Shown in pieces: positions 1-23,234 of a DNA stretch of 23,234 bases (the first letter of the stretch is position 1; the number at the start of each line of letters is the position of its first letter). The stretch is from positions 1-23,234 of the IMG/VR virus record IMGVR_UViG_3300003582_000006. The stretch is one strand, 5' to 3'. The translations under genes were made by a program, and so were the position numbers. The notes under the pieces are model-generated. The model searched no databases, was not told where the DNA came from, and was given only the letters and a program-made list of their open reading frames with translations. Source of the stretch: a virus.

Positions 1-1620
1 CGATGTATCTGTGATAGTTAATGTCGCATCATCTTTCGTGACGAAGATGTCACCACCGAAGGTTGCGGAGAGGCTACCACTATTATTCTGTAAAACTAAT
101 TGATTAATCCAAGAAATCCCTGCATCTGCCACCCCTGCTATTGCAGTTCTAAATCTAACAGCACCGTCAGAAAACATTATTGAATTGGCTTCATCACTTG
201 CGTTTGTACTAATATATTTCCATGTATCCGTAGAACTGGAATGATAAGCATTAGCACTTACCCATGTTTTAGTCCCGTCTGCTTGAGTAGTTTCACTACT
301 TAACCCTGCTGTACCACCAACCTGCAATGCACTAACTGTTGATGTCCATGTGGCGAGGTTTTCGGTTTCGATGCCTACGTTGGCGTTATTAGCTATCGTT
401 AGGGCATCTGTGAATGTTGGAGTTGTGTCAAGTGATGCAAGTGCCCCAACTTTAAACACAAATGTCCCATGAAGCATTGCTATCGCATTTGATTCATCCG
501 TAGATATTGTTTTGAAAGAACCATCATGATATAAATTATTCGTTAGATATAAATGGCGTGATGCCGCAGGTGTTGCATGAGCAAAGAGTGCCGCATTTCC
601 ACCAATCTGCAAGGCTCTCCATCCTGATTGCCACACTTCAAGGCTCGCATTGCCTATACCTACATTCGCATCATTCGCTATTGTGAGGGCAGTAGTTAAA
701 TTACCTGCCGTGTCTGTATCTACTGAACCTGATGTAATAACATCAAATATATGAGTTCCATTAACTTGTAGGTATCTACTCGCTTGATCCGTTGAAATAT
801 ATTTGTACAAACCGTCAAAATACATATTCTGTGATAAAATGAGTGCCTTAGATGCCCCTTGAGTAGTTTGGGCAACCAATGAGGCATTACCACCAATCTG
901 TAATGCTGTCCAATCTGTATGCCACGCTTCAAGGCTCGAATTGCCAATGCCTACATTACCATCTGAACTTCCACCCGCTCCACCAAAGAAAACATTGCCA
1001 CCCCCAAAGGATATATCTGCTGTGCCTTCCTGATCTATTGCAAGAGTATTTAATGCTCCTTCATCATAATTGAATGCAGTAGCACCACCAACAATTATCT
1101 TCGCTTGGTCTACTGAAAATTGAAGGTATGTATCTGCATCACCATCATGAGTAAGTTTGTTGGCAATATTTAGATCACCACCAATAGAGATAACACTATT
1201 AATTGTATCAACAGTAAATACATCGTCAGCATCACCATCTTTTCTTATCAATAGTGCTTCAGCATTATCAGTATCAATCAATAATGTGCCCTGAATTACT
1301 TCGTCTATAGCTATGGAAGATGATCCTGATATAGCAAGATCACCATCACTATTAATGCTAGCAACTTCGGCATCATCAGAATCTGTGATGCTTAATTTTT
1401 CAACACCAGCATTATCACCCAGCTTAATTGTAGCCGTTCCACTATCAGGCTCCCAGACATCAAATTGAGCTGAACCGACTATGTTTATTTTCAATGCATC
1501 GCTTGAGCTTTCCCAGATGGCATTCAAGATGTCTTGACTGGATGGAACTACTGATACACCGATGGTGCTATTTACCAGTACATCATTTAATATTTCTTGT
1601 ATGCTTGCTTGTAATGCCAT
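1..1620 (-). CDS. Fibre-like structural protein with tandem repeats (partial, C-terminus outside window)
   Basis: The frame is open for 540 codons from an ATG at 1618-1620 to the left edge with no stop, so the gene is cut by the window. The N-terminus (MALQASIQEILND) is followed by glycine-, serine-, threonine- and aspartate-rich sequence with short beta-strand-like steps and few charged clusters, as in phage fibre and spike stalks. From about residue 222 it contains three repeats of about 95 residues, each opening with NVGI and carrying a W...ALQ(I/V)GG core. NVGIG...-type motifs are common in phage tail fibres and appendage proteins. No adhesin tip, chaperone or peptidase domain is visible; if present it lies beyond the edge. 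It sits directly after head genes, so a capsid-borne fibre is possible as well as a tail fibre. The fibre-like nature is fairly sure; the location in the virion is inference. Confidence 0.75.
   Translation of the reverse strand, partial: MALQASIQEILNDVLVNSTIGVSVVPSSQDILNAIWESSSDALKINIVGSAQFDVWEPDSGTATIKLGDNAGVEKLSITDSDDAEVASINSDGDLAISGSSSIAIDEVIQGTLLIDTDNAEALLIRKDGDADDVFTVDTINSVISIGGDLNIANKLTHDGDADTYLQFSVDQAKIIVGGATAFNYDEGALNTLAIDQEGTADISFGGGNVFFGGAGGSSDGNVGIGNSSLEAWHTDWTALQIGGNASLVAQTTQGASKALILSQNMYFDGLYKYISTDQASRYLQVNGTHIFDVITSGSVDTDTAGNLTTALTIANDANVGIGNASLEVWQSGWRALQIGGNAALFAHATPAASRHLYLTNNLYHDGSFKTISTDESNAIAMLHGTFVFKVGALASLDTTPTFTDALTIANNANVGIETENLATWTSTVSALQVGGTAGLSSETTQADGTKTWVSANAYHSSSTDTWKYISTNASDEANSIMFSDGAVRFRTAIAGVADAGISWINQLVLQNNSGSLSATFGGDIFVTKDDATLTITDTS
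91..957 (-). repeat. Three tandem ~95-residue repeats inside the fibre gene
   Basis: In translation, repeat A spans about 957-667 (97 codons), B 666-382 (95 codons) and C 381 to about 91. Each starts NVGI, continues with SLE.W or NLATW, then ALQIGG or ALQVGG, later Y or K followed by IST(D/N), and A and B end in ALTIAN(D/N)A. Repeats A and B are the closest pair and C is more diverged. The pattern suggests duplication of a beta-rich stalk module. The outer boundary of C is approximate. Confidence 0.75.
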
Positions 1621-1636
1621 GGAAATTAATCCTTAT

Positions 1637-2092
1637 TTAAAAATTTTCTATGCACTTCAATAATTGAGCTTTATTCATACTATTATCATATGGAACATCT
1701 TTCTTGTCCATATAATCTTTTAGTCTAGCAACTGTCCATCCCATTGATGGGAGTTCACCATCAGATACATCTTCATTGGTGTTATCTGGTACTGGAATGT
1801 CTTTCTCTATGGCTGGCACTTCATCTGTTGATTCTGTGGCATCTCCCACCTCAGGCTCTGGTGTGGCTAGAGATCTCTGTTGTTTTTCTATTGCTATGCC
1901 GGCCACCTTTGTTTCATACTCTCCTTTTTTCAACATTTTGAATACCTTTGGAAAATCGATGTTTAATCGTTTGGCTTCATCATCATCTGCTTCAAAAAAG
2001 CAAGTCTCAGGATGATCTGTATTACAAGTGATCTGACCATTTTGGTAATTTTTCTGAAGATTTGGAATCCCTAGAAATTGCATATATTTCAT
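1637..2092 (-). CDS. Small phage protein with C-terminal HeH/LEM-like domain
   Basis: This 151-residue protein starts at an ATG preceded by AAAAGGAT. The N-terminal ~55 residues carry a short Cys-containing stretch (ITCNTDHPETCFF). The middle (about 70-115) is acidic and rich in P, T and E, so probably a flexible linker. The last ~35 residues (GWTVARLKDYMDKK...KAQLLKCIENF) fit the helix-extended-loop-helix pattern of HeH/LEM or SAP-like domains, which phages often encode near their head genes. It lies between the 90-residue protein and the fibre gene, downstream of an intrinsic terminator, and is probably a minor virion or assembly protein. The domain call is by motif pattern only; the role is inferred from position. 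Confidence 0.6.
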   Translation of the reverse strand: MKYMQFLGIPNLQKNYQNGQITCNTDHPETCFFEADDDEAKRLNIDFPKVFKMLKKGEYETKVAGIAIEKQQRSLATPEPEVGDATESTDEVPAIEKDIPVPDNTNEDVSDGELPSMGWTVARLKDYMDKKDVPYDNSMNKAQLLKCIENF

Positions 2093-2112
2093 TTTAATAT
2101 CCTTTTAAGATT

Positions 2113-2160
2113 AAAAAATATTGACAGGGAATTACTTTGTAGCACTAGTCCCTGTCAATA
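2113..2160 (-). terminator. Rho-independent terminator after the 90-residue gene
   Basis: A perfect 12-bp inverted repeat (TATTGACAGGGA at 2119-2130, complement at 2149-2160) encloses an 18-nt loop. Read on the minus strand, the hairpin is followed by a run of six T at 2118-2113. It lies just past the stop of the gene at 2174-2446. Confidence 0.85.
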
Positions 2161-2173
2161 GTTAGTTATTTAT

Positions 2174-2446
2174 TTATGATGCTTCAGCCAATTTTCTGAT
2201 CCATAGGACAATCAGTTTATCACCAGTTGTAGCAACACTACACTGAATATTACCATCAGAAGTAATAGATGTTGTTGATGTCCTATCTGTTGGAATTCCA
2301 GTAGTGGTTGCAATTTCTATTACTGACCATAATTTATCAGTGGTCAATATGCCTGTTACAGCCATGTTGGTATCTGCTCCTGCCCCAGCAACTGTTGCTG
2401 ATCTAAAAGCCTTTGTGTTCATTTCATTTAAGACAAAATCTGCCAT
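2174..2446 (-). CDS. Small virion-region protein of unknown function (possible head decoration)
   Basis: This 90-residue protein starts MADFVLNEMNTKAFRS. It is rich in Thr, Ala and Ile, has no cysteine and no transmembrane segment, and has an alternating beta-like pattern. A purine-rich GAGAG stretch precedes the ATG. It is bracketed by two intrinsic terminators, one upstream (after the capsid gene) and one downstream. A small gene right after the major capsid gene is often a decoration or head-completion protein, but I recognise no family, so that role is a guess from position. Confidence 0.7.
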   Translation of the reverse strand: MADFVLNEMNTKAFRSATVAGAGADTNMAVTGILTTDKLWSVIEIATTTGIPTDRTSTTSITSDGNIQCSVATTGDKLIVLWIRKLAEAS

Positions 2447-2465
2447 GATGCTCTCTTTTCTTTAT

Positions 2466-2513
2466 TTTTAAAAATTAAACTAGACAAGCACGTGATGAAT
2501 CGTGCTTGCCTAG
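2466..2513 (-). terminator. Rho-independent terminator after the major capsid gene
   Basis: A 13-bp stem (2480-2492 with 2501-2513, one G-T wobble) has an 8-nt loop. On the minus strand it is followed by TTTAATTTTT. It lies between the capsid stop codon at 2540-2542 and the next gene, so it probably limits read-through beyond the capsid gene. Confidence 0.8.
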
Positions 2514-2539
2514 CACGCCATACATAACCAAGGAGGAGA

Positions 2540-4102
2540 TTATGTTGTCAAATTGTATCCGACTACAGCCACAGCTTCATCAGATGCCATTGTGAATAGT
2601 GATGTGAAATCCACTCTTCTGGAAACAACAACTTGAGTCTGCTGTGTAGCAATATCACGGTCACTTTCCGCAATGGGTGATCCTTTATCAGCACCCCAGA
2701 ATCCACGCCTGTTTACTAGCAGGATATTAGATTTTGTCTCAGTGACACCATCCTGATATCCAGTAGCATTCAGATCCTGTTTCATCCATTCAGATACGAT
2801 AATTGGAGCACCATCAACCTTTGCCAATTCACCTTTTAGGACAGTTGCATTTGGCCCGAATTTATCCAGTGTCTCAACCTGAGTCAAAGACAGCATCTGA
2901 ATAAATGCAGAGATCCCAGCAATCCAAGCAAGTTCATTAGGCATAACACCATATTTGCCCATGCCTTTTCTCATGGTACGCAATTTGGTTACAGACAAAG
3001 TAGAGATGTCTGTGGCACCAGATCCTGTAGGTGCGGCACCTGTGGCTGTCCCACCTTCTGAGCGCAATCCATCATAGGATCTATTAATATCACTTGAAGT
3101 AGTCACATCACTATCAAAGTGAGTTGCTGTCTCATCACCATTGATAATAGAATCATCAGATGCCGATGCTATCGCATAAGCCAATTCATCCAGCACAATA
3201 GGCATCATTGCAACAATACCATCTTCATCCATTTCGTCAGAAAATAACATTCTCACAGCATGCTTGATAGCAGTGAATGTTTTCTTGGCTGAAGTTAAAT
3301 TCCTTGTAGAAATTTTCGTGCCTGTATCATCAGTGTTCTCACCCATCAAGTAGGCACGCACCGCTGAAGATTGTAATGGAATATCAAATGAGCCTGATCT
3401 GTTAGGCAAAGTTACTCTAGGAAACAATGCTGAAACTTTCAATTCAAGATTGATACGATCAATAAACTGGCCGGACATCTGAGTTGTTACCCAGCTAGAA
3501 TTCGCTGTGGTGTCCATAGCTTTCAAATGACTACGCAGATCTGGCAATCGACGCAATTCATAATCCATCAGTTTGTAAGTCTCTGAATTGACTATTGAAT
3601 TGGCAAATTTCGCTTCATCAAATCCGTGCTTTCTGGTAGCATTATAAACACCCCAGATCATTAACATGTCATTCATTTTCATGACATCAGAAGGTAGCAT
3701 GTAGCCGTCACCCATAGACTTGTATCCAGTAGGTGTCCACTCAGTGTTTGTGCGATACATGGCCTTGCCTATAGGATCACCGTTGCCATATCCCCAGACA
3801 TTGGCCACTCTTGCCTGCTTCTCAGTAATTTCCTTACCTACACCGCCAATAGAGTCCCAGACTTCCATCTGTTTCTCCTCTTCAACTTCTGTAAGTTTCT
3901 CAACTTTAGCGGTCAACAGATCCTGAGCTGTTTTCATGCCTGTTAGTGCCATAGTAAGATCTTCTGTTGCTTTTGTTTGCTTTTCCTTTTGCTCTGACAC
4001 AGACTCAGCAACACCTGTTACGGCATCACTGATTTGAGCAAGGATGGCTGGCAACTGTTTTTCATCCAGTAAATTTGGATTAATAACTTTTACATTTTCC
4101 AT
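2540..4102 (-). CDS. Major capsid protein, HK97 fold, with N-terminal scaffold (delta) domain
   Basis: The 520-residue product fits the HK97-type phage capsid family. Residues about 12-80 form a charged, Glu/Lys-rich coiled-coil region typical of the delta scaffold domain that the prohead protease removes. The remainder holds the capsid fold: the extended segment with Q.SGQFIDRI, a central region with ENTDDT followed by KK.FTAIKHAVRM.FSDE, and a C-terminal part ending in SRRVDFTSLFTMASDEAVAVVGY. The protease gene immediately upstream supports cleavage during head maturation. I cannot see whether an HK97-style Lys-Asn crosslink exists. The gene is followed by an intrinsic terminator, as expected for a strongly expressed gene. 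Confidence 0.92.
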   Translation of the reverse strand: MENVKVINPNLLDEKQLPAILAQISDAVTGVAESVSEQKEKQTKATEDLTMALTGMKTAQDLLTAKVEKLTEVEEEKQMEVWDSIGGVGKEITEKQARVANVWGYGNGDPIGKAMYRTNTEWTPTGYKSMGDGYMLPSDVMKMNDMLMIWGVYNATRKHGFDEAKFANSIVNSETYKLMDYELRRLPDLRSHLKAMDTTANSSWVTTQMSGQFIDRINLELKVSALFPRVTLPNRSGSFDIPLQSSAVRAYLMGENTDDTGTKISTRNLTSAKKTFTAIKHAVRMLFSDEMDEDGIVAMMPIVLDELAYAIASASDDSIINGDETATHFDSDVTTSSDINRSYDGLRSEGGTATGAAPTGSGATDISTLSVTKLRTMRKGMGKYGVMPNELAWIAGISAFIQMLSLTQVETLDKFGPNATVLKGELAKVDGAPIIVSEWMKQDLNATGYQDGVTETKSNILLVNRRGFWGADKGSPIAESDRDIATQQTQVVVSRRVDFTSLFTMASDEAVAVVGYNLTT

Positions 4103-9028: not shown

Positions 9029-9518
9029 TTTTCAAGTCATGTAAATCATTTGTATGGAGATGCTCAATTTGCCCTTCGACTTTCAATGTCATCTGCTCAT
9101 TATAACCGAAGGCAGTTTTCAAATGGAATAATAAAGCACCAAGGTTGTGGTCATCGAAAATGTGCCAATCCAATTTATCCTGTAGCTTTAAATGCAATTT
9201 GCCTTTGGCTAGTTCAACTTCATTTTTAAAATCAGGATTTTCTTTGACCCATGAGGCAAATGTTGTAGGAGTTATACCGATGGCATAGGATGCTTGACTG
9301 TAGGATGCTCCTCTGCTTATTAATCTTACTGCAATTTCACGCTTGGTGGTATTAATTTTTTCTTTCTCAAACGCATCAAATTTGCGTGGTTGTAATTCGA
9401 TAACTCCATTCTTTTTAAGAGTTACGGCAAATGATTCGTCAGTTGCAAACTGGTTGAGTATACGCTCAGTATCATCTTTTCGATCATATTTCTTTCCATT
9501 TCCGTTGCTTCCCGACAT
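8931..9518 (-). CDS. terS: Terminase small subunit (DNA-recognition)
   Basis: This 195-residue protein should recognise the packaging site and load DNA onto the large subunit. I start it at the ATG at 9516-9518, which has AAGGTGGT directly upstream. A longer frame begins at a TTG at 9572 but has no ribosome site. A helix-turn-helix is visible at about residues 62-95 (ISRGASYSQASYAIGITPT, then FASWVKENPDF), followed by a helical oligomerisation region and a polar tail that overlaps the large-subunit gene. Position immediately before the large terminase supports the call. The AT-rich region upstream could hold the packaging site or a late promoter. Confidence 0.82.
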   Translation of the reverse strand: MSGSNGNGKKYDRKDDTERILNQFATDESFAVTLKKNGVIELQPRKFDAFEKEKINTTKREIAVRLISRGASYSQASYAIGITPTTFASWVKENPDFKNEVELAKGKLHLKLQDKLDWHIFDDHNLGALLFHLKTAFGYNEQMTLKVEGQIEHLHTNDLHDLKNVTTAMRLALARDNMADDPLSVSERGREIGTT

Positions 9519-10060
9519 GACCACCTTATTTAAATTACGCTGTAATTTATAATAGGTCACCCTATACTTCAAAGGAAAATATTAATCTCGCACACGCAAT
9601 GGCCTCATCATGGAAGGATCACACCTACACCCATATCTATACACAATACCACAATTTGAATCTTTTCCACCATATTCTAAACACAATAATATCAAAAAGG
9701 GCAGTTTTCACTGCCCCTTAAAAAATTACTACCATGATAATATTGGACTTACATTTATTAAAAAAAAATATAACCCTTATATAATAATAATTTAATTTAA
9801 TTTATATATATATATATACTCTATCATTAAAAATATTCTATTTGTATAAAAAAAATTGCAACTTACTATAGCTTTATTTGAGAAATCTTTTTTATCACCC
9901 TTCCACACTAATAAAAACAATCACTTACATTTTCTCATTCGCACACTTTTGATATTATCCACTTTTGGAATTTACAATAATTATATATTTTATTCCACCG
10001 GCCATTATCCGCCTTAAAAAATATTAACTATGTAAATCGAGTTTCTGGCAGTTTTCAGGC
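9519..10060 (-). other. AT-rich intergenic region upstream of terminase
   Basis: I find no gene here. It contains the terminator at 9693-9720, a (TA)n run at about 9803-9818 inside very AT-rich sequence, and two motifs resembling DnaA boxes (TTATCCACT at 9955-9963 and TTATCCGCC at 10005-10013). A late promoter, packaging site or origin would be plausible here, but I cannot identify any of them with confidence. The only minus-strand start with a fair ribosome site encodes 16 codons, which I do not call. Confidence 0.5.
9693..9720 (-). terminator. Rho-independent terminator separating early and late genes
   Basis: The stem GGGCAG/CTGCCC (9699-9704 with 9711-9716, extendable by A-T pairs around a one-base bulge) has a 6-nt loop. 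On the minus strand it is followed by TTTTT. It should stop transcripts coming from the early genes and methyltransferase before the terminase gene. No T-run follows on the plus strand. Confidence 0.75.
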
Positions 10061-10255
10061 CTACCAGAATATCATTTTAAAATTAAGTTTAACAATATCA
10101 ACACCCATGCCATTGATATTCTCATATTTGAAAACTCACAATTCCTTGAATTCTCTTTCCAAATTCTCAATATCATTGTTTATTCCGGCTATTTTACTTT
10201 TTAAAATATTTTTAATAACACCCAAATATTCAGAGTGTTTGTCTTTGCTGACCTT
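10061..10255 (-). pseudogene. Decayed reading frame, 3' remnant of an unknown gene
   Basis: Downstream of the PAPS-reductase fragment, in a different frame, 38 codons read like a charged helical protein (start VSKDKHSEYLGVIKNIL, end DIENLEREFKEL) before TGA at 10136-10138. The same frame continues after that TGA with another protein-like stretch (VFKYENINGMGVDIVKLNF) to TAG at 10061-10063. There is no start codon with a ribosome site, and an upstream in-frame TAA closes the frame at the joint. It looks like the tail of a second gene left by a deletion. I recognise no family; spurious coding is possible. Confidence 0.4.
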
Positions 10256-10472
10256 TTACGCATCCGATACAGTTATTATTATTATATCCAAGTTTGTACA
10301 TCATCGGAATTTCTATCCCTGCTCGGTCGATAATAGCCAAACAATTTTCTTTACTTAAATCATTATCAATCAATGGCGTTGAAATATTTATTTCTGGGTT
10401 ATTTTCTTTGAATCTGGTTATCCTTTTACGCTCTGAATTATCAAACCCCCAAACCGGGGTGTCGTTGTAGTA
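10230..10472 (-). pseudogene. Fragment of a phage PAPS-reductase-like (PP-loop) gene
   Basis: Directly after the methyltransferase stop, and in its frame, 74 uninterrupted codons encode the C-terminal half of a phosphoadenosine phosphosulfate reductase-like protein. Recognisable pieces are PVWGFDNSERKRITRF, TPLIDNDLSKENCLAI, RAGIEIPMMYKLGY and NNNCIGCVKG. In intact relatives the PP-loop SGGKDS motif lies upstream and a GYWN...DFPE segment follows CVKG. Here the first is absent and the second is replaced by six unrelated codons and TGA. There is no start codon or ribosome site. This family uses adenylated intermediates in sulfur chemistry; in phages it is linked only speculatively to nucleic-acid modification. 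I infer a gene truncated at both ends, probably recently because the core still reads cleanly. Confidence 0.75.
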
Positions 10473-14014: not shown

Positions 14015-15273
14015 ATCAAGGCCTTCTTGCTTTTCTTAACATACTTTTTCACCACTTTACATTCCCTCATGAGGATGGTTTTATCATCCTCTTTCTTTTT
14101 ACCTACTTGGGCAGTGATAATTTGAAATCCTGCTTCCAGCAATTCATTGACTAGCTTGGCTTGATTATCCTCATCGAGTCTTTCAAAATCATCAATAAAC
14201 CTGACCTTTAAATCAGGATTCATAGACATATGTAACTTTGCCACAATGATTTCCAGCTCTCCCTTGCTGAAATACTTATCTTGTATAGGTCTGCCATTTA
14301 GTAACAATCCACCATTGCCAGACACAGTAAGGCCATCAAACCCAAAGTCAAAGGCCTTGATGTATTTGATCTTTTCAGCATCAACTTCCTTTTGCTTTGC
14401 TTTGTTGTAAGCTAGATTTTTATTTATAGTATCCTGATTGGTTTTATTATTCATCCACTGGTTGTAGGCATCAGCTTTTCTGTTTGTTTCCTCAGCATCT
14501 TCAAATGCTTGATCAATTTTAGATCCGTCTTTTAATTCTTCAGGTTTGGGTTTTGCATTAAGAATTACCATGCCTTTAGCAATGCGGTCATGTAATGCTT
14601 TTTTTTGCTCTCGCAGATCCTCAATTCTGGATTCAGTATTTTCAATATCACGCTGTCTATCATGCTGAATCTGATTAAATTCAGAGATCTCCCTGCCTTG
14701 TTTACGCAATTTTTCAACATCAACATGCTCAATATTATCCGGCTCTTCACCAATATCACCCATGTCTTTGAGTTTACGATTAAAATATGTGAAATCAGAT
14801 TTGTACATTTTAGTATCAGCATCAAATGTGCTGGTATCAATCCCCAGACTTTGTGCTTGCGCTCTAGGATCTAAAGCACAGAAATGTTTAGCAGATACAA
14901 ATACAGTATCAAACAAAGTATCCAGCCACAATGGGTCAATTTCGCCCTCTATAGGTTTGAATGTAATGTGGTTGCCCTGCTTTGTGATATGATTTTTAAT
15001 AAGTACCTTCAGGTGCTTTTGCTCATCTTCCAGCAGGATCTCTATGTCTGCCGATGGCTTTTGAGATCCAATGAATCTGTATCTTTCACCGATGAGTTGT
15101 CCATCTTTATTCTTTTCAGCAATGCCTTTGAAACATGCCCATATGGATATGAGTCCAACAGTAGTTTTGCCAGATCCATTTACACCTACTAATTTGGTGA
15201 TGTCTTTGTTAAATTCTATCTCAAAATCTACAAACTTGTGTAGATTATTTATTTTTACTTGCTTGATTTTCAA
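14011..15273 (-). CDS. Rad50/SMC-like AAA ATPase involved in DNA metabolism
   Basis: The 420-residue product has Walker A GVNGSGKTT at residues 30-38, Walker B VRFIDDF at 357-363, and a short charged coiled-coil region (about 185-235). The signature motif before Walker B reads FSKGELEIIVAKL instead of LSGGQ-like, so it is degenerate but in place. This layout is that of RecF/SbcC/Rad50-type ABC ATPases, here with a miniature coiled coil. Phage relatives often act with an exonuclease in recombination or DNA processing; no SbcD-like partner is in the window. The start codon is TTG at 15271-15273, well supported by AAGGAG seven bases upstream. Confidence 0.85.
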   Translation of the reverse strand: MKIKQVKINNLHKFVDFEIEFNKDITKLVGVNGSGKTTVGLISIWACFKGIAEKNKDGQLIGERYRFIGSQKPSADIEILLEDEQKHLKVLIKNHITKQGNHITFKPIEGEIDPLWLDTLFDTVFVSAKHFCALDPRAQAQSLGIDTSTFDADTKMYKSDFTYFNRKLKDMGDIGEEPDNIEHVDVEKLRKQGREISEFNQIQHDRQRDIENTESRIEDLREQKKALHDRIAKGMVILNAKPKPEELKDGSKIDQAFEDAEETNRKADAYNQWMNNKTNQDTINKNLAYNKAKQKEVDAEKIKYIKAFDFGFDGLTVSGNGGLLLNGRPIQDKYFSKGELEIIVAKLHMSMNPDLKVRFIDDFERLDEDNQAKLVNELLEAGFQIITAQVGKKKEDDKTILMRECKVVKKYVKKSKKALI

Positions 15274-16426: not shown

Positions 16427-16758
16427 TTCTCCTGAGTAATATTAAATATTCTTTGGAGTTGATCAGCATCCAATGTGTACATTTTAAAATGGGTCAATCG
16501 GGCAACCAATTTCTTTTTCAACATTTCCAACACTACTTTTTTTCTCAATTCCGGTGTTGCTTCATATATAAATGCTCCATATATGAAGTCATCCCCAACA
16601 GCCCTTCCTGTTAATCTGTTGAATCTGTAGCCTGAAGATTTGATGACTATCATTGTTTTTGTTACCTTATAAACTTCAGTAATTTCCCTGCCAACTCTAG
16701 TGCTGAGGATAACCTCATCCCCAGCACCAAGGCCTTCTAGCCATGTTGTATTATTCAT
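16423..16758 (-). CDS. Phage protein with probable small beta-barrel domain
   Basis: The 111-residue product starts MNNTTWLEGLGAGDEVILST, with a GDEV turn, then TEVYKVTKTMIVIKSSGYRFNRLTGRAVG style beta strands that suggest a KOW/SH3-like barrel, and a basic C-terminal helical part (ATPELRKKVVLEMLKKK). I recall similar proteins in many phage early regions, with unknown function. It is coupled to the J-domain gene (TAATG) and to the protease gene (ATGA). Confidence 0.65.
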   Translation of the reverse strand: MNNTTWLEGLGAGDEVILSTRVGREITEVYKVTKTMIVIKSSGYRFNRLTGRAVGDDFIYGAFIYEATPELRKKVVLEMLKKKLVARLTHFKMYTLDADQLQRIFNITQEK

Positions 16759-17243
16759 TAGTTCAAGCCCTTTGTATCATCATTTTCAACAGTTTCACAA
16801 CCAAACATCATAGAGATCTCTGTGCTTGAATATCTGCGTTTGCTAGATCTTTTCCAACCATCTTGAGGATCATGCCAGTACCATTGTTTCTTTCCACGTG
16901 CCCATCTGAATTTCAATTCTTTCAAATAGTCTTTCACTGGTTTTGTATCTCCACTTACCCAGATCCAATTACCTTTGACTTCAATGTCAACAGGAAGGTG
17001 GGAAATTTTTTGAAGCATATCAACCACAGCCTGTTCTTTAGCATAGCTATAAGTGTATGACCATTTTGCTTCACTAGTAGCTTTCCAGCCATTTAAACTT
17101 TTCAAAGTTTCATGGTATTGATTATTAATCTCTTGCATCACAGCAGTGTCACCACCTTTGTCCGGATGATTTTTCATAGCTAGATCCCTGAAAGTCATCT
17201 TGACTTGAGCTGGTGTTTTCATGTTGGTAAAATAATTTGTCAT
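16758..17243 (-). CDS. J-domain (DnaJ-like) protein
   Basis: I start this at the ATG at 17241-17243 (161 residues); AAAGGAG lies seven bases upstream, whereas an ATG six bases earlier sits directly on the ribosome site. Residues about 5-50 form a J domain: KTPAQVKMTFRDLAMKNH, then the diagnostic HPD (26-28) in HPDKGGD, and MQEINNQYHE. The C-terminal part (WIWVSGDTKPVKDYLKELKF, then KKQWYWHDP) is an accessory domain seen with phage and plasmid J proteins. J domains stimulate DnaK ATPase, so this may redirect the host Hsp70 to a phage target, possibly in replication. It follows leader cassette copy 1, so it probably heads a transcript. Confidence 0.85.
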   Translation of the reverse strand: MTNYFTNMKTPAQVKMTFRDLAMKNHPDKGGDTAVMQEINNQYHETLKSLNGWKATSEAKWSYTYSYAKEQAVVDMLQKISHLPVDIEVKGNWIWVSGDTKPVKDYLKELKFRWARGKKQWYWHDPQDGWKRSSKRRYSSTEISMMFGCETVENDDTKGLN

Positions 17244-17335
17244 CGTCATCTCCTTTGTTTCTTTGTTTCTTAACCTACTCAATAATAAGGGTGATGCCCT
17301 ACACCATCCTAGTCTTTTTTAATTTTTTTTTCAAA
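17244..17335 (-). promoter_or_regulatory. Promoter/leader cassette, copy 1
   Basis: On the minus strand this reads: nine A, ATT, six A, GACTAGGA, a variable ~20 nt, CCCTTATTATTGAGTAGG, TTAAG, and an ACAAAGGAG ribosome site. It is nearly identical to stretches at 18680-18775 and 19397-19490. Conservation between different genes implies a promoter plus 5' leader. The stop codon of the upstream gene (17331-17333) lies at its left end. I cannot assign standard -35 and -10 boxes with confidence. Confidence 0.7.
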
Positions 17336-17936
17336 ATTTATTCCATTCTCTGACTCTGTCCGGATATATTTCACCAAAATTAGCCACAGCATCTTCCAGC
17401 CAAGTCATCTCTAATTGTAATTTTGGGATAACAAGTTTTGGAACATCTTCATCCTTACAAACAAAAAACACATCAGTTCTTCCACCCTCACCGCCTGCTC
17501 CGGCTCTGGTTACAATAGTCTCAAGATATTTCACACTAACAGCAAAATGATCTTTCATCCATTTCTCAAATTTTTTGTGCTCACCTTCTGCCTCATCCAT
17601 CACTGTGCCTGGCCAAACTACAATCTGGGTATAGCCTTCGATGTCAACATTTTCTCCATTGCCTAGTGTGATAGTATTGGGAGAATCCTCAATAACAACA
17701 GTTGGCTCCGGCTCATCTTCATCTTCACAATAATCATCCATGGCTTCAATCAGCACTGGAATAGTCTCATCATGAGGATTATTACCATTTGCCCAATTAG
17801 ATAAATGGCCTATGATATAAGCATCAGCAGATGATTCACAGCCTGTATCGTGTACTGCCTCTTCAATCTTTCCAATAGCATCATTAATTAATTCTGATGC
17901 TTCATTCAATAAATCTTTTCTTTCTTGCGTTTTCAT
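17331..17936 (-). CDS. Conserved-type phage protein of unknown function
   Basis: I start this at the ATG at 17934-17936, overlapping the upstream stop (TAATG) with TTGGAG nine bases before; an extension of 12 codons is possible but has no ribosome site. The 201-residue product has an N-terminal helical domain (DLLNEASELINDAIGKIEEA, then AYIIGHLSNWANGN), an acidic linker (YCEDEDEPEP) and a C-terminal domain with TRAGAGGEGGRTDVFFV and WLEDAVANFGEIYP. The GGRTD stretch and the aromatic ends recall conserved phage proteins of unknown role. No catalytic motif I can name. Confidence 0.7.
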   Translation of the reverse strand: MKTQERKDLLNEASELINDAIGKIEEAVHDTGCESSADAYIIGHLSNWANGNNPHDETIPVLIEAMDDYCEDEDEPEPTVVIEDSPNTITLGNGENVDIEGYTQIVVWPGTVMDEAEGEHKKFEKWMKDHFAVSVKYLETIVTRAGAGGEGGRTDVFFVCKDEDVPKLVIPKLQLEMTWLEDAVANFGEIYPDRVREWNKF

Positions 17937-18343
17937 TACTTTGTACTCCAAAATATAGTTGCTTGTTCCCAAATCTGATCAGCCATTTTTGAGGCTTCAC
18001 CATAATTCAAATTGATAGATCCTAAATCACAATCATCCTCTGGATAATCTTTAATTGTAGGAGATGAGCCATATGTATCTTTCACCCATGCCCATGCCAC
18101 TATAGTGTCGCCAATTCGATGCTCGAAAAATGCGATGTTCATTTGCTTGGTTGCCATCTTATTCTGTAACCAGATCACATATCCCTGCTCACGTCCATTT
18201 TCCCATCTAGCAATATTGACTTTAGCACTATATTCATTGAAATTATCACTCCATGAATTTTCAATATTCCTGCCCTGTAAAAATGCCAGTACAGCTTTGG
18301 CTTGATTTCCGGCTCCATCTTGTAAATAATTATTCATTTCCAT
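17936..18343 (-). CDS. Phage protein of unknown function
   Basis: The 135-residue product begins MEMNNYLQDGAGNQAKAVLA and is rich in Trp, Asn and acidic residues (NSWSDNFNEY, IVAWAWVKDTYG, YPEDDCDLGS). No transmembrane segment and no recognisable motif. The start follows the preceding stop immediately (TAAATG) and the end overlaps the next gene (TAATG), so it is the middle gene of a three-gene unit that starts at leader cassette copy 2. Confidence 0.65.
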   Translation of the reverse strand: MEMNNYLQDGAGNQAKAVLAFLQGRNIENSWSDNFNEYSAKVNIARWENGREQGYVIWLQNKMATKQMNIAFFEHRIGDTIVAWAWVKDTYGSSPTIKDYPEDDCDLGSINLNYGEASKMADQIWEQATIFWSTK

Positions 18344-18679
18344 TTAGTCAACCTGCTTCCATGAGTTATTTTCGTGACGGAAATTACATGTGTAACCATT
18401 AGATCCACAGTGGTGTTCATAGGTGTATCTGACTTCAATATAAATTGTAATCCCTTTAGGGTGTTCATACACGCCATATTTAACAGACATTTCCATATCT
18501 TTAAACATTGACTTGACACACTTCAATCCTGATACATCTATGGTTCGGTGTTCAATTAAATTTTTCCATTTACCATCAGTTGTAATATCCCCACCAGCTA
18601 ATTTTGGGGCAAAAAATATTTCTTGGGCATGTAACTTTGCATTAATTAGGGTTGCAATTTCTTGGTTTGTAAGTTTCAT
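18344..18679 (-). CDS. Phage protein of unknown function, first gene after leader copy 2
   Basis: I start this at the ATG at 18677-18679, the position used relative to AAAGGAGATGAAA in the leader cassette; longer frames start inside the leader itself. The 111-residue product opens with a helix (MKLTNQEIATLINAKLHAQE) and ends with a Tyr/His/Cys-rich segment (YTYEHHCGSNGYTCNF). Two cysteines and two histidines there could bind a metal, but this is only a suggestion. No family recognised. Confidence 0.65.
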   Translation of the reverse strand: MKLTNQEIATLINAKLHAQEIFFAPKLAGGDITTDGKWKNLIEHRTIDVSGLKCVKSMFKDMEMSVKYGVYEHPKGITIYIEVRYTYEHHCGSNGYTCNFRHENNSWKQVD

Positions 18680-18775
18680 TTTCATCTCCTTTGTTTCTTT
18701 GTTTGTTCTTAACCTACTCAATAATAAGGGTTGCAGATAACACAGTCCTAGTCTTTTTTAATTTTTTTTTCAAAA
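18680..18775 (-). promoter_or_regulatory. Promoter/leader cassette, copy 2
   Basis: Same elements as the other two copies, including the A-tract, AAAAAAGACTAGGACTGTGT, TTATCTGC, CCCTTATTATTGAGTAGG, TTAAG and AAAGGAGATGAAA. It shares the CCCTTATTATTGAGTAGG block with copy 1 and the CTGT.TTATCTGC block with copy 3, so the three form a graded family. Confidence 0.7.
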
Positions 18776-18778
18776 AAA

Positions 18779-19057
18779 TTACGATAATGACCCATTTCTT
18801 AAATAATGGGCTATCATCTGCCCTTCAGTATATCCGTGTGCTTCACAATACTCATACCAGCTATATCTGACTTTGTTTTTCAGCATCTTTCCAATAATCC
18901 TCATCCGGCTATCTTGCTCTGCAGTAGATCCTTTCACGCACTCTGAACCATACACTCCTGCCATTCCTTTCACAGCATATGCGTGTTTTATCTCCCTTCC
19001 GCACTTACTACAGTTGAACCAATAGCCCTCGAAATTTGCCACTTTTATGATACTCAT
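18779..19057 (-). CDS. Small zinc-ribbon phage protein
   Basis: The 92-residue product has CSKCG (residues 16-20) followed by AYAVKGMAGVYGSEC about 20 residues on, giving three cysteines in a probable zinc-ribbon arrangement. The second half is helical with basic and aromatic residues (MRIIGKMLKNKVRYSWYEY). A strong ribosome site (AAGGAG) precedes the ATG, nine bases after the upstream stop. A nucleic-acid or protein adaptor role is plausible; no specific family recognised. Confidence 0.7.
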   Translation of the reverse strand: MSIIKVANFEGYWFNCSKCGREIKHAYAVKGMAGVYGSECVKGSTAEQDSRMRIIGKMLKNKVRYSWYEYCEAHGYTEGQMIAHYLRNGSLS

Positions 19058-19066
19058 TTCATCTCC

Positions 19067-19396
19067 TTAATTCAAGTGGATTATAAAAAGTCCGCAACCG
19101 CAATTTTCCTTGGAGCAATTTTCTTCATCGATAATAGTTTCAATTGCATCCCATAAGTTAATAAAATTTAAATCTTGAGAATCACCAGTCATACAATCTA
19201 TCAATTCACCATCAATGCCCATTCTAAATTCACTTGTATTATTTTCAAAATCAATATGGATGCCGTGATCTTTAGGGTTGATGGATATATTTTTTTCCAT
19301 TCCAGCATCTAATAAAAATTTATTATTGTCATCTATAATGGTTTGTATTAAACCTGAAACTTCACTTATTATATTTTGAATTTTTAAATCTCTCAT
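19067..19396 (-). CDS. Phage protein of unknown function, first gene after leader copy 3
   Basis: I start this at the ATG at 19394-19396, placed relative to AAAGGAGATGAAA as in the other leader copies. The 109-residue, acidic product begins MRDLKIQNIISEVSGLIQTI, has a central beta-like portion (DHGIHIDFENNTSEFRMGI) and ends with a Cys cluster (ENCSKENCGCGLFIIHLN) that could bind metal. No family recognised. Confidence 0.65.
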   Translation of the reverse strand: MRDLKIQNIISEVSGLIQTIIDDNNKFLLDAGMEKNISINPKDHGIHIDFENNTSEFRMGIDGELIDCMTGDSQDLNFINLWDAIETIIDEENCSKENCGCGLFIIHLN

Positions 19397-19490
19397 TTTC
19401 ATCTCCTTTGGTTTTTTGTTTCCCCTTAACTACTCTTATATTAAGGAAGGCAGATAATACAGTCCTAGTCTTTTTTAATTTTTTTTTAAA
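19397..19490 (-). promoter_or_regulatory. Promoter/leader cassette, copy 3
   Basis: The cassette has the A-tract, AAAAAAGACTAGGACTGT, ATTATCTGCC, a variant CCTTAATATAAGAGTAG, TTAAG and AAAGGAGATGAAA. It is the most diverged copy in its middle block. The ~145 bp between it and the nuclease stop codon (19491-19635) hold no gene I can support, only AT-rich sequence and a weak 6-bp hairpin. Confidence 0.7.
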
Positions 19491-19635
19491 AAAATAATCT
19501 AAAAATATTTATAAGATATATATGGAAAGTGCTATACACACATAGGTTTTGTCGAGGGAAATGGAAGGATCATGCTACACACCATATAAATATATATCAG
19601 CCATGTGTAATATCCACTCTATGGCATTTGAGTGG

Positions 19636-20058
19636 TCATTTGGCCATTCGTACTTTCTTCAGAGAATGTGGAAAAGTACCATGAAATTTGTTATCATTAT
19701 CCCATTTTTCTAGCAGGTCATGGTATAAATAGGCCTTAACCTCATCAACTTTATACCATAAAATTTTATCAGTTCCATGGATGAAAACACAGATTTTTCC
19801 AACACCGCCAGCACCAATAATCTCTTTCAATCTATATATCTGCACTTTAGATATAGCAGTATCTAGCCTGATTATAGATCCTAATTTCACTGGTTTTACA
19901 ACCTTACATTCCACACCTATGAATCTACCATTTGAGCATATTAGCAGATCTGGGATGCCTGATTCTTGGTATTGATTCCCATGGATTTTGAATGCTTTTG
20001 TGCGTGGATGTTTCTGATAATACCTTTTCAGGAGTCTAACAAATTCCGGTTCTTTCAT
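19636..20058 (-). CDS. VRR-NUC-like PD-(D/E)XK nuclease
   Basis: The 140-residue product carries SGIPDLLIC (Asp37) followed by IGVECKV (Glu50 and Lys52), the PD...ExK catalytic core of restriction-like nucleases, with a Gln (Gln73, SKVQIYRL) after it as in VRR-NUC domains. Length fits stand-alone phage VRR-NUC proteins, some of which process branched DNA. The ATG overlaps the polymerase stop (ATGA), tying it to replication and suggesting a Holliday-junction or flap-type activity, which is inference. Confidence 0.82.
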   Translation of the reverse strand: MKEPEFVRLLKRYYQKHPRTKAFKIHGNQYQESGIPDLLICSNGRFIGVECKVVKPVKLGSIIRLDTAISKVQIYRLKEIIGAGGVGKICVFIHGTDKILWYKVDEVKAYLYHDLLEKWDNDNKFHGTFPHSLKKVRMAK

Positions 20059-23000
20059 GTCAATATTGTAATTTTTTTAACATCAATTTTCCTGAATGAA
20101 GGGATCTTGTTTCCATTGATTGCCACAACAGCACCCTTTCCATTCTCCAAGATATTAGATCTATACTTTGGCCATGTGAATCTATTTATGGATGCCATCA
20201 TCAGGCCAGTATCATCTTCAATAGTCAATATGCAAAACTCTGTGAGATCTAATCTTTTTGTGTATGTGGTGTTCTTTTTACCGGCCTCAAATATATCTCT
20301 TAAATTGATAGCTATGATTTTTGCTACCATTTTGATTGGCCCACTGAGTTCATCTACATCCCTGATTAATTTACAATCATATTGTTTCATCAAATCTTTG
20401 TATCCATCACCTATAGGATACAGATCATCCCATGGAACAACATCGATCCTTTCCAGATTGCTGGCCACTTTATCAGCAGGCATGCTACTATTATCATTTG
20501 TTGAAAATAAATCTGCCTGCCCTGAATTAAATGTAGGAAGGCAATCCAGCACGGCGAGAATCTGCTGAATTTTCTTTGGCACTTTCTGGGTATATATATC
20601 TTTGTTTTGGAAAGGCCTCATATCTAGGATCTTGTTTGCCATTCTAGCCCCAATGCCTTTGACATTAGAGAATCCCCCAATGATTTTACCATCCTTAAGT
20701 GAAAATGTTTTCTGGCTGTCATTTATATTAAGCACATCATATTTACCACCATACTCAACCCACTCACGCAATACTTTTTTTATCTTACCATCATCACTCT
20801 CATGAGCCAGTACAGCAGTATAATATTCAGCTGGATAATAATACTTTAAATATAAACACCAATAACTCATGATGCCATAGGATACACTGTGTGATTTATT
20901 AAATGCCCACGATCCGAATGTGTTCATCATATTCCACAATGTGTCAGCAATATCCTCCTCCATGCCATTTTTCAAAGCACCCTTGATGAATCCTTCCTTG
21001 AGTTTCCCAAAATATTCATCCCCCATAGACTTACTCATCCCGATCCGTGCGGTCATAGTATCTGACCAAGACATGGCACCAATGTATTTCATTATCATCA
21101 GCACCTGCTCCTGATATACTATAACACCGTGAGTTTCTGAGGCAATTTCCTCAAGTAGTGGGTGGATATATACAGCTTTTTTTGCTGTCTTTCGTTTGAA
21201 TCCTTTCTCATGTGCTCTGTAATCAAGATACATAGTTGTGCCACCACAATGTAATGCACCTGGTCTTGCCAGAGCAGAAATCTCTGATAAATTCCTGAAT
21301 TCATCCGGCCTAGTTTGGTTGCTGACAATTTGTACTGCCTCACCTTCCCATTGAAATACACCAGAGAATCTTTGATCCATCAACACTTTATATGGCTTAG
21401 GATCATCCAATGGCACATTATATAACCACTCATAGTCCTTTCCTATTAATTCCAGACAATCTTCAAATATAGCCAGTAATTTCAAACCAAGTATATCAAT
21501 CTTTAATAGATCTAATTTCTTGATGCCGTGCTTATCTACACACAACATCTCATCACCCTCTTTTGTCAAGCTAAAACTGCCAAATTTCGTCAGGTCTTTG
21601 CCTGACACAATCAGGCCACAAGCATGTACTGTAGATTGTCTGATTTGCCCTTCTAGGTTTTCACTAAATTTCAGCTGGGGATATTCATCAACAATCTTTT
21701 TAGCTTTATCAAACATTTCAATAGAGTCTTGAAGGCACATGCTCACACGTGCATCACCACTTGATCTCTCAATGATAAGGTTGCCAAGATCTTTAACATG
21801 CTGGTTAGGAATGTGGTATATTCTGCCAATATCCTGTAGGGCAACTTTTGGCTTAAAATATGACACTGCACCGATGGATGCTGTTTTGTCTCTGCCATAC
21901 TTGTCTCGCATGTATTTGAATACTAGATGCCTTTTGTTATCAGGGAAATCAACATCAATATCAGGAAGATCCGGCCTTGTGATATCTATGAATCTTTCAA
22001 AAAATAGTCCGTGTTTAATCGGGTCAACCTCAGTGATTGAAAGACAATAGCACACCAGAGATCCTGCTGATGATCCTCTGGCAGATCCTACAAGCATCCT
22101 TTTCTTTGCCCATACACACATATCAGCTATAACAAGAAAATAATCAACAAATCCTTTTTCATTGATTATAGACAATTCCCTTTTCATTCGGGCTTTATAT
22201 TCTTTGTTCAGTGGCAGGGATCTCCTTTTAAACCCAGCCCAACACTCATTCTTAAAATGTTTGAGTTTTGACTTTGTACCTTTGGGATATACAAATTTAA
22301 TAGATGTACCTTTTTGGATGGTAACATTACATTTCTTGGCAATCTCATTGGTGCTCCTGATTGCTTCTCTCCATTTAGATCCTAGCTTATCACGACACCT
22401 TTTTTCCATCTCATCCCCACTCCAGATATACATATCATCATACATTACCATCCTATTGGGATTGTTCATTTTACTGTGGGTATTGATACACAGCTTAATT
22501 TCTTGCCATTTAGCATCCTCTTTTTTAGGATAATGAGAATCAAGAGTAGCAACCAATTTAGCCTTTGCCATCACAGCAAGATCCACTATTGTTCTAATTT
22601 TCTCCTGCTGTTCTTGCTGATAATATGGAGTGACTTCAACATACATATCATCTAGGAATTTGTCTTTTAAACACCGCACGAATTTCAAACATGTATCAAA
22701 ATCTCTGTAGTGCTCACTGAGATAACCAGCACCGAGGCAACCTGTGGTCACAATCAGGCCTTCATGGTATTTAAATAAATGCTCTAAATCAATTCTAGGC
22801 TTTCTGTAAAATCCTTCAATGCCTGCAATTGATTGCAATTTATATAAATTTCTGAGGCCTGTATTATTTTTGGCTATAATAGTCATGTGATAAGTCATGC
22901 CTGATTTCACATGCAGGTCATCACACCAATAAAATTCACATCCCAGTAATGGTTTCATTTTATTTTTTACCATAGTGGTATAGAATTCTATATGCCCCCA

Positions 23001-23132
23001 TGTATTGCCATGATCTGTAATAGAGCATGTATCTAGGCCTATCTCTTTGAGATGGTCACAGATCTGCTGTGGTGTGCCATATCCGTCTAAAAATGAATAT
23101 GTAGTATGGACATGTATTGGCGTGTATTTCAT
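20055..23132 (-). CDS. dnaE: DNA polymerase III alpha subunit, DnaE type
   Basis: I start this at the ATG at 23130-23132, preceded by AAGGAG; a longer frame begins at 23222 but has no ribosome site. The 1025-residue product is close to cellular DnaE length. Domains in order: PHP (HVHTTYSFLDG at 7-17, ITDHGN, LLGCEFYW), palm with GSARGSSAGSLV (349-360), catalytic Asp391 and Asp393 in PDIDVDF and Asp546 in KIDILGL, fingers, a helix-hairpin-helix (VKGIGARMANKIL, about 824-836), a QADLF clamp-binding motif (872-876), and a C-terminal OB-like domain. There is no proofreading exonuclease domain, so it is not PolC-like. It is probably the phage replicase and may use the host sliding clamp. It is coupled to the VRR-NUC gene. 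Confidence 0.95.
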   Translation of the reverse strand: MKYTPIHVHTTYSFLDGYGTPQQICDHLKEIGLDTCSITDHGNTWGHIEFYTTMVKNKMKPLLGCEFYWCDDLHVKSGMTYHMTIIAKNNTGLRNLYKLQSIAGIEGFYRKPRIDLEHLFKYHEGLIVTTGCLGAGYLSEHYRDFDTCLKFVRCLKDKFLDDMYVEVTPYYQQEQQEKIRTIVDLAVMAKAKLVATLDSHYPKKEDAKWQEIKLCINTHSKMNNPNRMVMYDDMYIWSGDEMEKRCRDKLGSKWREAIRSTNEIAKKCNVTIQKGTSIKFVYPKGTKSKLKHFKNECWAGFKRRSLPLNKEYKARMKRELSIINEKGFVDYFLVIADMCVWAKKRMLVGSARGSSAGSLVCYCLSITEVDPIKHGLFFERFIDITRPDLPDIDVDFPDNKRHLVFKYMRDKYGRDKTASIGAVSYFKPKVALQDIGRIYHIPNQHVKDLGNLIIERSSGDARVSMCLQDSIEMFDKAKKIVDEYPQLKFSENLEGQIRQSTVHACGLIVSGKDLTKFGSFSLTKEGDEMLCVDKHGIKKLDLLKIDILGLKLLAIFEDCLELIGKDYEWLYNVPLDDPKPYKVLMDQRFSGVFQWEGEAVQIVSNQTRPDEFRNLSEISALARPGALHCGGTTMYLDYRAHEKGFKRKTAKKAVYIHPLLEEIASETHGVIVYQEQVLMIMKYIGAMSWSDTMTARIGMSKSMGDEYFGKLKEGFIKGALKNGMEEDIADTLWNMMNTFGSWAFNKSHSVSYGIMSYWCLYLKYYYPAEYYTAVLAHESDDGKIKKVLREWVEYGGKYDVLNINDSQKTFSLKDGKIIGGFSNVKGIGARMANKILDMRPFQNKDIYTQKVPKKIQQILAVLDCLPTFNSGQADLFSTNDNSSMPADKVASNLERIDVVPWDDLYPIGDGYKDLMKQYDCKLIRDVDELSGPIKMVAKIIAINLRDIFEAGKKNTTYTKRLDLTEFCILTIEDDTGLMMASINRFTWPKYRSNILENGKGAVVAINGNKIPSFRKIDVKKITILT

Positions 23133-23145
23133 TTTTTCTCCTTGA

Positions 23146-23234
23146 TCAAATCTGACATACCTGATTTTTTTGATTTTCTGCAATGCCTGCCTGCAACAAT
23201 TTGAGCCTGCAATATGTTGCAAATTCTGTTGTTT
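23146..23234 (-). CDS. C-terminal end of an upstream gene (partial, unknown)
   Basis: One minus-strand frame is open from the right edge to TGA at 23146-23148 and reads like a helical protein end (FATYCRLKLLQAGIAENQ, ending QVCQI). The polymerase ribosome site follows directly. A second frame, ending TGA at 23129-23131 over the polymerase ATG, is also open but is a less protein-like string of basic residues. With only 28 residues I cannot name it. Confidence 0.4.
   Translation of the reverse strand, partial: TTEFATYCRLKLLQAGIAENQKNQVCQI

Follow-up and report, generated by a model that had tools for sequence, protein, structure and literature searches.

Repeated intergenic cassettes of a phage as probable early promoters with a 5′ leader, duplicated together with small early genes

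What is the function of a noncoding block that recurs in front of several genes of the same phage? The window (the whole stretch of 23,234 nucleotides analysed here, from an uncultured phage) raises this question because it contains three intergenic blocks of ~95 nt on the minus strand, each ending at a start codon. The original prediction described them as promoter/leader cassettes with a series of shared elements, all of which are found where it had placed them:

17244–17339, minus strand: cassette copy 1, before a DnaJ-like gene; ATG at 17243, with an in-frame ATG at 17249 directly after the Shine–Dalgarno (SD) sequence
18680–18778, minus strand: cassette copy 2, before a 111-aa gene; ATG at 18679, alternative at 18685
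19397–19495, minus strand: cassette copy 3, before a ~110-aa gene; ATG at 19396, alternative at 19402
17307–17331, minus strand: box A of copy 1, A9-TT-A6-GACTAGGA, a UP-element-like A-tract plus TAGG at 17308–17311
18746–18770, minus strand: box A of copy 2, the same 25 nt as in copies 1 and 3
19463–19487, minus strand: box A of copy 3, the same 25 nt as in copies 1 and 2
17250–17274, minus strand: leader of copy 1, GTTAAG, an A/C-rich unstructured stretch and the SD sequence AAAGGAG at 17250–17256
18686–18713, minus strand: leader of copy 2, AAAGGAG at 18686–18692
19403–19430, minus strand: leader of copy 3, AAAGGAG at 19403–19409

Read 5′ to 3′, each cassette consists of a T-tract, A9-TT-A6-GACTAGGA, an 18-nt spacer, a TTAWTAT block (TTATTATTGAGTAG in copies 1 and 2, TTAATATAAGAGTA in copy 3), GTTAAG, an A/C-rich stretch, the SD sequence and the ATG; the sequence before the ATG is CAAAGGAGATG in copies 1 and 2 and CCAAAGGAGATG in copy 3. 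All copies have two in-frame ATGs that are 6 nt apart (ATGAAAATG or ATGACGATG), the second of which is better spaced from AAAGGAG. The part between the blocks, first described as variable and 15–20 nt long, is indeed variable in sequence, but its length is exactly 18 nt in each copy. Among the direct-repeat families of the window, the cassette ranks first; the exact sequence AAAAAAGACTAGGA occurs three times, and three matches were present in none of 100 dinucleotide shuffles, even when two mismatches were allowed. An in-frame upstream extension of the genes from TTG (MSRLR..KETKEM) in copies 1 and 2 was rejected as coding; it is absent in copy 3. Also, AAAAAAGACTAGGA is often one half of rho-independent terminators (AAAAAGACTAGGA..TCCTAGTCTTTTT); the other half is missing from the cassette, which led us to reject a terminator, and no terminator-like site was found at any of the three window cassettes.

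A profile built from the three window copies only was then sufficient to detect a fourth (copy 4; 14696–14793, minus strand) in a second contig, IMGVR_UViG_3300003582_000012 (G001, also L133; 16,797 bp), with a profile hit at 14694–14790, 45.6 bits and an E-value of 2e-13 in a search of G001; the best of 60 dinucleotide shuffles of G001 scored 8.1 bits. This further copy is more diverged and lies in a contig that is linked to the window: G001 was matched by a 28-nt probe from the right end of the window and has an exact 93-bp repeat in common with that end. The 93 shared bases are part of a ~167-bp tandem repeat before dnaE, where the contigs end. From the shared repeat, the cassette, paralogous genes, similar GC contents (37.0% in the window and 35.6% in G001) and gene orientation, we infer that the window joins G001/G005 and that G001 is probably the rest of the same phage; the cassette itself helped to link the contigs. 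Copy 4 is also present at 100% identity in the same-phage contigs G005 (25,122 bp) and G006 (12,246 bp), and no fifth full copy was found in the 48 kb of phage sequence. Another locus, L136, matches the leader pattern only, within other sequence, and was dropped. The tandem repeat (23142–23234 in the window, 1–300 in G001) is rich in TTGCAGGC/TTGCAACA-like words and is located just upstream of the dnaE-like gene; it is a candidate replication origin with iterons.

The position of copy 4 is informative because it takes up most of the 101 nt that separate the tail block from the early genes; the tape measure and minor tail proteins are encoded upstream of the last tail-block gene. The first early gene (~195 aa, DUF7678) precedes genes for a SNF2-type helicase, a primase and nucleotide metabolism, and the promoter for the early block is expected in the 101-nt gap or inside the gene before it. 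A terminator-like hairpin with a T-run (GGCAGGGTCA..TGATCCTGCC-TTTTTT) is located between the first and second early genes (14044–14110 in G001). The identified genes of the window are all on the minus strand and encode the dnaE-like polymerase (20055–23132), small early proteins and a methylase, then the terminase, portal, protease and capsid proteins; at its left end is a long open frame, in which we noted a 113-nt direct repeat (560–963; 76% identical).

The tail/early junction position of copy 4 supports a promoter with a leader as the best reading of the cassette, as originally proposed; a structured leader, or a phage sigma factor or polymerase as the reason for the poor boxes, finds no support here (vide infra). 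We consider it probable that every cassette is self-contained, with an early promoter and a 5′ leader, and that duplication copied it along with small early genes; that it acts as a promoter, where transcription starts and that host polymerase is used are all what we infer from the sequence. The phased A-tracts (A9-TT-A6) would be a UP-like element that is bound by the alpha C-terminal domains of the host RNA polymerase; TAGG would occupy the −35 region, and the −10 would be TAWTWT, which follows TAGG at 20 nt. Transcription would start at a purine in the (TA)GGTTAAG block, ~30–40 nt before the start codon. The leader that results would be short, rich in A and C and free of structure, and its near-ideal AAAGGAG should allow good translation of the mRNA. 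Copy 4 would start the early operon, and copies 1–3 would provide extra local starts further down the replication-gene operon.

The candidate −10 elements in the window are:

17282–17287, minus strand: TATTAT in copy 1, TAnnnT register
18721–18726, minus strand: TATTAT in copy 2, TAnnnT register
19438–19443, minus strand: TAATAT in copy 3, TAnnnT register

This is the sole register in which the T, A and final T of a −10 are found in all four copies (TATTAT/TATTAT/TAATAT/TATTTT), and a TAnnnT register in all four is also found in 13% of column shuffles. UP elements occupy the region from −60 to −40, with subsites at −45 to −37 and −58 to −45 (PMC2613000); if TAWTWT is the −10, A9-TT-A6 is located at −56 to −40 and, in that frame, provides an A/T-rich stretch within the UP-element region. 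That no good −35 and −10 boxes can be fitted, as noted from the start, agrees with our scores: the best joint match over the four copies, TTKAAA-17-TAGGWY, scores 31/48, a value reached by 43% of column shuffles, and the pair with TAWTWT as the −10 scores 27/48, neither being above column shuffles; both spacings are exactly 17 nt. As the candidate boxes are not significant alone, we base the promoter assignment on where the cassette lies, how it is built and what leader it has.

Transcription could, however, start further upstream in the same cassette, that is, TTKAAA-17-TAGGWY could be a host promoter, with the TTAWTAT/GTTAAG block in a ~70-nt leader or operator. Having the best joint match with its 17-nt spacing exact in all four copies, and with copy 1 listed as promoter-like (9/12), this alternative is a real possibility, although a doubtful one: in copies 2 and 3, TAGGAC is without the T at −7, the shuffles score equally as often as just stated, and the fixed spacing to the second block is left unexplained.

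In an ungapped alignment of the four copies, identity is 20–25/25 in box A, 6–14/18 in the spacer and 12–20/20 in box B; for copy 4 vs the window copies, the values are 20/25 in box A and 8–9/18 in the spacer. The distance from the A-tract/box A to the end of GTTAAG is a constant 63 nt in 4/4 copies, and the GTTAAG-to-SD stretch varies by up to 3 nt among copies. In copies 2 and 4, GCAACCC has apparently moved by one base, and a second one-base shift restores the distance to TATTWT. Two blocks at a fixed distance with free sequence between them would suit a bipartite DNA site that is read by one protein complex.

TAGG is likewise invariant in 4/4 copies, always 20 nt from TAWTWT, and nothing resembling a TTGACA −35 is present there. 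This allows an activator-dependent promoter, in which a phage protein on GACTAGG/CATTAGG (~−36) would replace the −35 contact in a MotA-like manner, by analogy with the T4 middle promoters that swap the −35 for a phage box (PMC2988021). We regard this alternative as unlikely: among the genes of the 48 kb, none was recognised as MotA/AsiA-like or as a sigma factor, and copy 4 precedes the first early gene, so it must fire without new phage proteins unless a virion protein helps. The original prediction had offered the phage's own sigma factor as a reason for the poor boxes; this finds no support, as a search of the 48 kb of phage sequence for sigma-70 region 4 gave no match (controls positive). 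For a single-subunit RNA polymerase, we obtained no PF00940 match in the 48 kb, a search in which the control also matched nowhere, and none in Pfam scans of the main early ORFs. A related and distinctly unlikely reading is that an unrecognised phage factor, perhaps virion-borne, binds TAGG at its fixed distance from the −10 along with the phased A-tract and so redirects the host RNA polymerase, in a phage for which no transcription factor is known.

Could the conserved unit instead be RNA, that is, a leader that controls translation or stability by its structure or by a bound protein, with no promoter? In copy 4, conservation is highest in the SD region and the A/C-rich leader, and the second early gene of G001 has the leader half only (AAAAAGAAACAAAGGAG), directly after the terminator-like hairpin and T-run. 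However, we found no conserved secondary structure: the alifold consensus is −0.88 kcal/mol, and the mean of column shuffles is −0.87 kcal/mol, so the structured form of the shared RNA leader that had been suggested to control translation finds no support. Single folds have z-scores from −2.4 to +1.4 with differing structures; between box A and GTTAAG, every copy has a fold of its own; and the leaders from the proposed start have minimum free energies of 0 to −0.8 kcal/mol (z +0.7 to +1.3), no better than shuffles. Because such a leader would also leave the A-tract and the fixed spacing unexplained, we judge it very unlikely.

The genes behind the window copies bear on how the cassettes arose:

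16758–17243, minus strand: follows copy 1 and encodes a DnaJ-domain-like protein (PHROG 15863, 1.5e-30; the Pfam DnaJ match, E 0.001, falls short of the cut-off)
18344–18679, minus strand: follows copy 2 and is paralogous to the early gene that comes second after copy 4 (E 3e-10; 27% over 111 aa)
19067–19396, minus strand: follows copy 3 and is paralogous to the early gene that comes first after copy 4, in the C-terminal part of the latter (E 2e-7)

The downstream genes had been described as unrelated; this is correct among the three in the window (no hits in an all-against-all comparison, and no BLASTP hit for those of copies 2 and 3), but two of the three have paralogs behind, or next after, copy 4. 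The all-against-all comparison (59 ORFs) thus gives two early-gene paralog pairs between the window and the copy-4 locus, in the same gene order; because the copy-3 and copy-2 genes are paralogs of the first and second copy-4 genes, cassettes and small genes appear to have been duplicated together. Most simply, an early segment of two genes would have been duplicated along with the control region in front of it, after which the cassette would have reached the second gene and the DnaJ-like gene as well. A leftover of recent duplication with no regulatory role would also have paralogous genes travelling with the cassettes; we find this highly improbable, as the noncoding cassettes are 78–83% alike (copy 4 vs copies 1 and 2), whereas the neighbouring paralogous proteins have diverged to 24–27% identity. 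Cassettes that stay ~80% alike next to such proteins point to retention by selection or gene conversion, although the conservation may partly reflect recent duplication because four copies in one phage are not independent.

Mobile regulatory cassettes of the T4 type, the PeSLs (promoter early stem-loops), were reportedly described by Arbiol in 2010 and Comeau in 2014 (cited in PMC4503421). In PeSLs, an early promoter is joined to a stem-loop terminator; like them, the blocks described here, with a putative promoter, are repeated between small variable phage genes and move with genes. The window cassettes differ in having no stem-loop terminator and in including a leader and Shine–Dalgarno sequence. 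The SAS/ESAS elements of cluster K mycobacteriophages (13-bp GGGATAGGAGCCC, 3–7 nt before the start codon, with 17-bp inverted repeats upstream) are also repeated noncoding sequences just upstream of the start codons of unrelated nonstructural genes and include AGGAG (PMC3203893); however, the cassette has CAAAGGAGATG rather than GGGATAGGAGCCC and an A-tract with a long conserved upstream module, and the copies have no inverted repeat in common (the 17-bp ESAS type is absent). T4 early promoters share the A/T-rich UP-like element upstream and the early genes, but they match −35, TGn and −10 well and the cassettes do not (PMC2988021). T4 middle promoters, in which a TGCTTtA MotA box precedes a good −10 by 12 ± 1 bp, share the use of a non-host-like element instead of a −35 with a −10 downstream (PMC2988021), but the aligned cassettes have no TGCTT, a spacing of 20 rather than 12 nt, and no recognised MotA/AsiA. 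The cassette works like a mobile early promoter cassette, although it matches the full definition of no named family; it looks like an ordinary phage strategy in which a good start signal is copied along with small genes.

No independent relatives were found: every contig found is the same phage (99.9–100% identity). A phage DNA search gave no relatives; the cassette DNA had short weak matches only to phages; scans of viral contigs gave only the same phage or unrelated chance matches; scans of genome contigs gave no independent relative; and nhmmer with the four-copy model had no match over 122 unrelated loci (1.15 Mb). Bare AAAAAAGACTAGGA was discarded as a marker for the cassette, as it matches at least 120 viral stretches, many of them rho-independent terminator halves. 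The large terminase subunit of the phage has nine records of relatives among sequenced phages; for a lineage with so few, the cassettes are a concrete starting point for the early transcription programme. They are also a clear case of promoter–leader blocks spreading with small genes; nothing known is overturned.

Elsewhere in the window, a 0.9-kb AT-rich intergenic stretch (9573–10472) separates the methylase from the terminase small subunit and has a strong terminator-like site (9719–9696); 9722–9813 is 78% similar to 9144–9235 of G001, in the intergenic stretch preceding the primase. The early region of G001 (528–3791) carries genes for ThyX, a class-III aminotransferase and proteins that resemble a sulfotransferase and a thymidylate kinase; this metabolic combination is unusual and may serve DNA modification.
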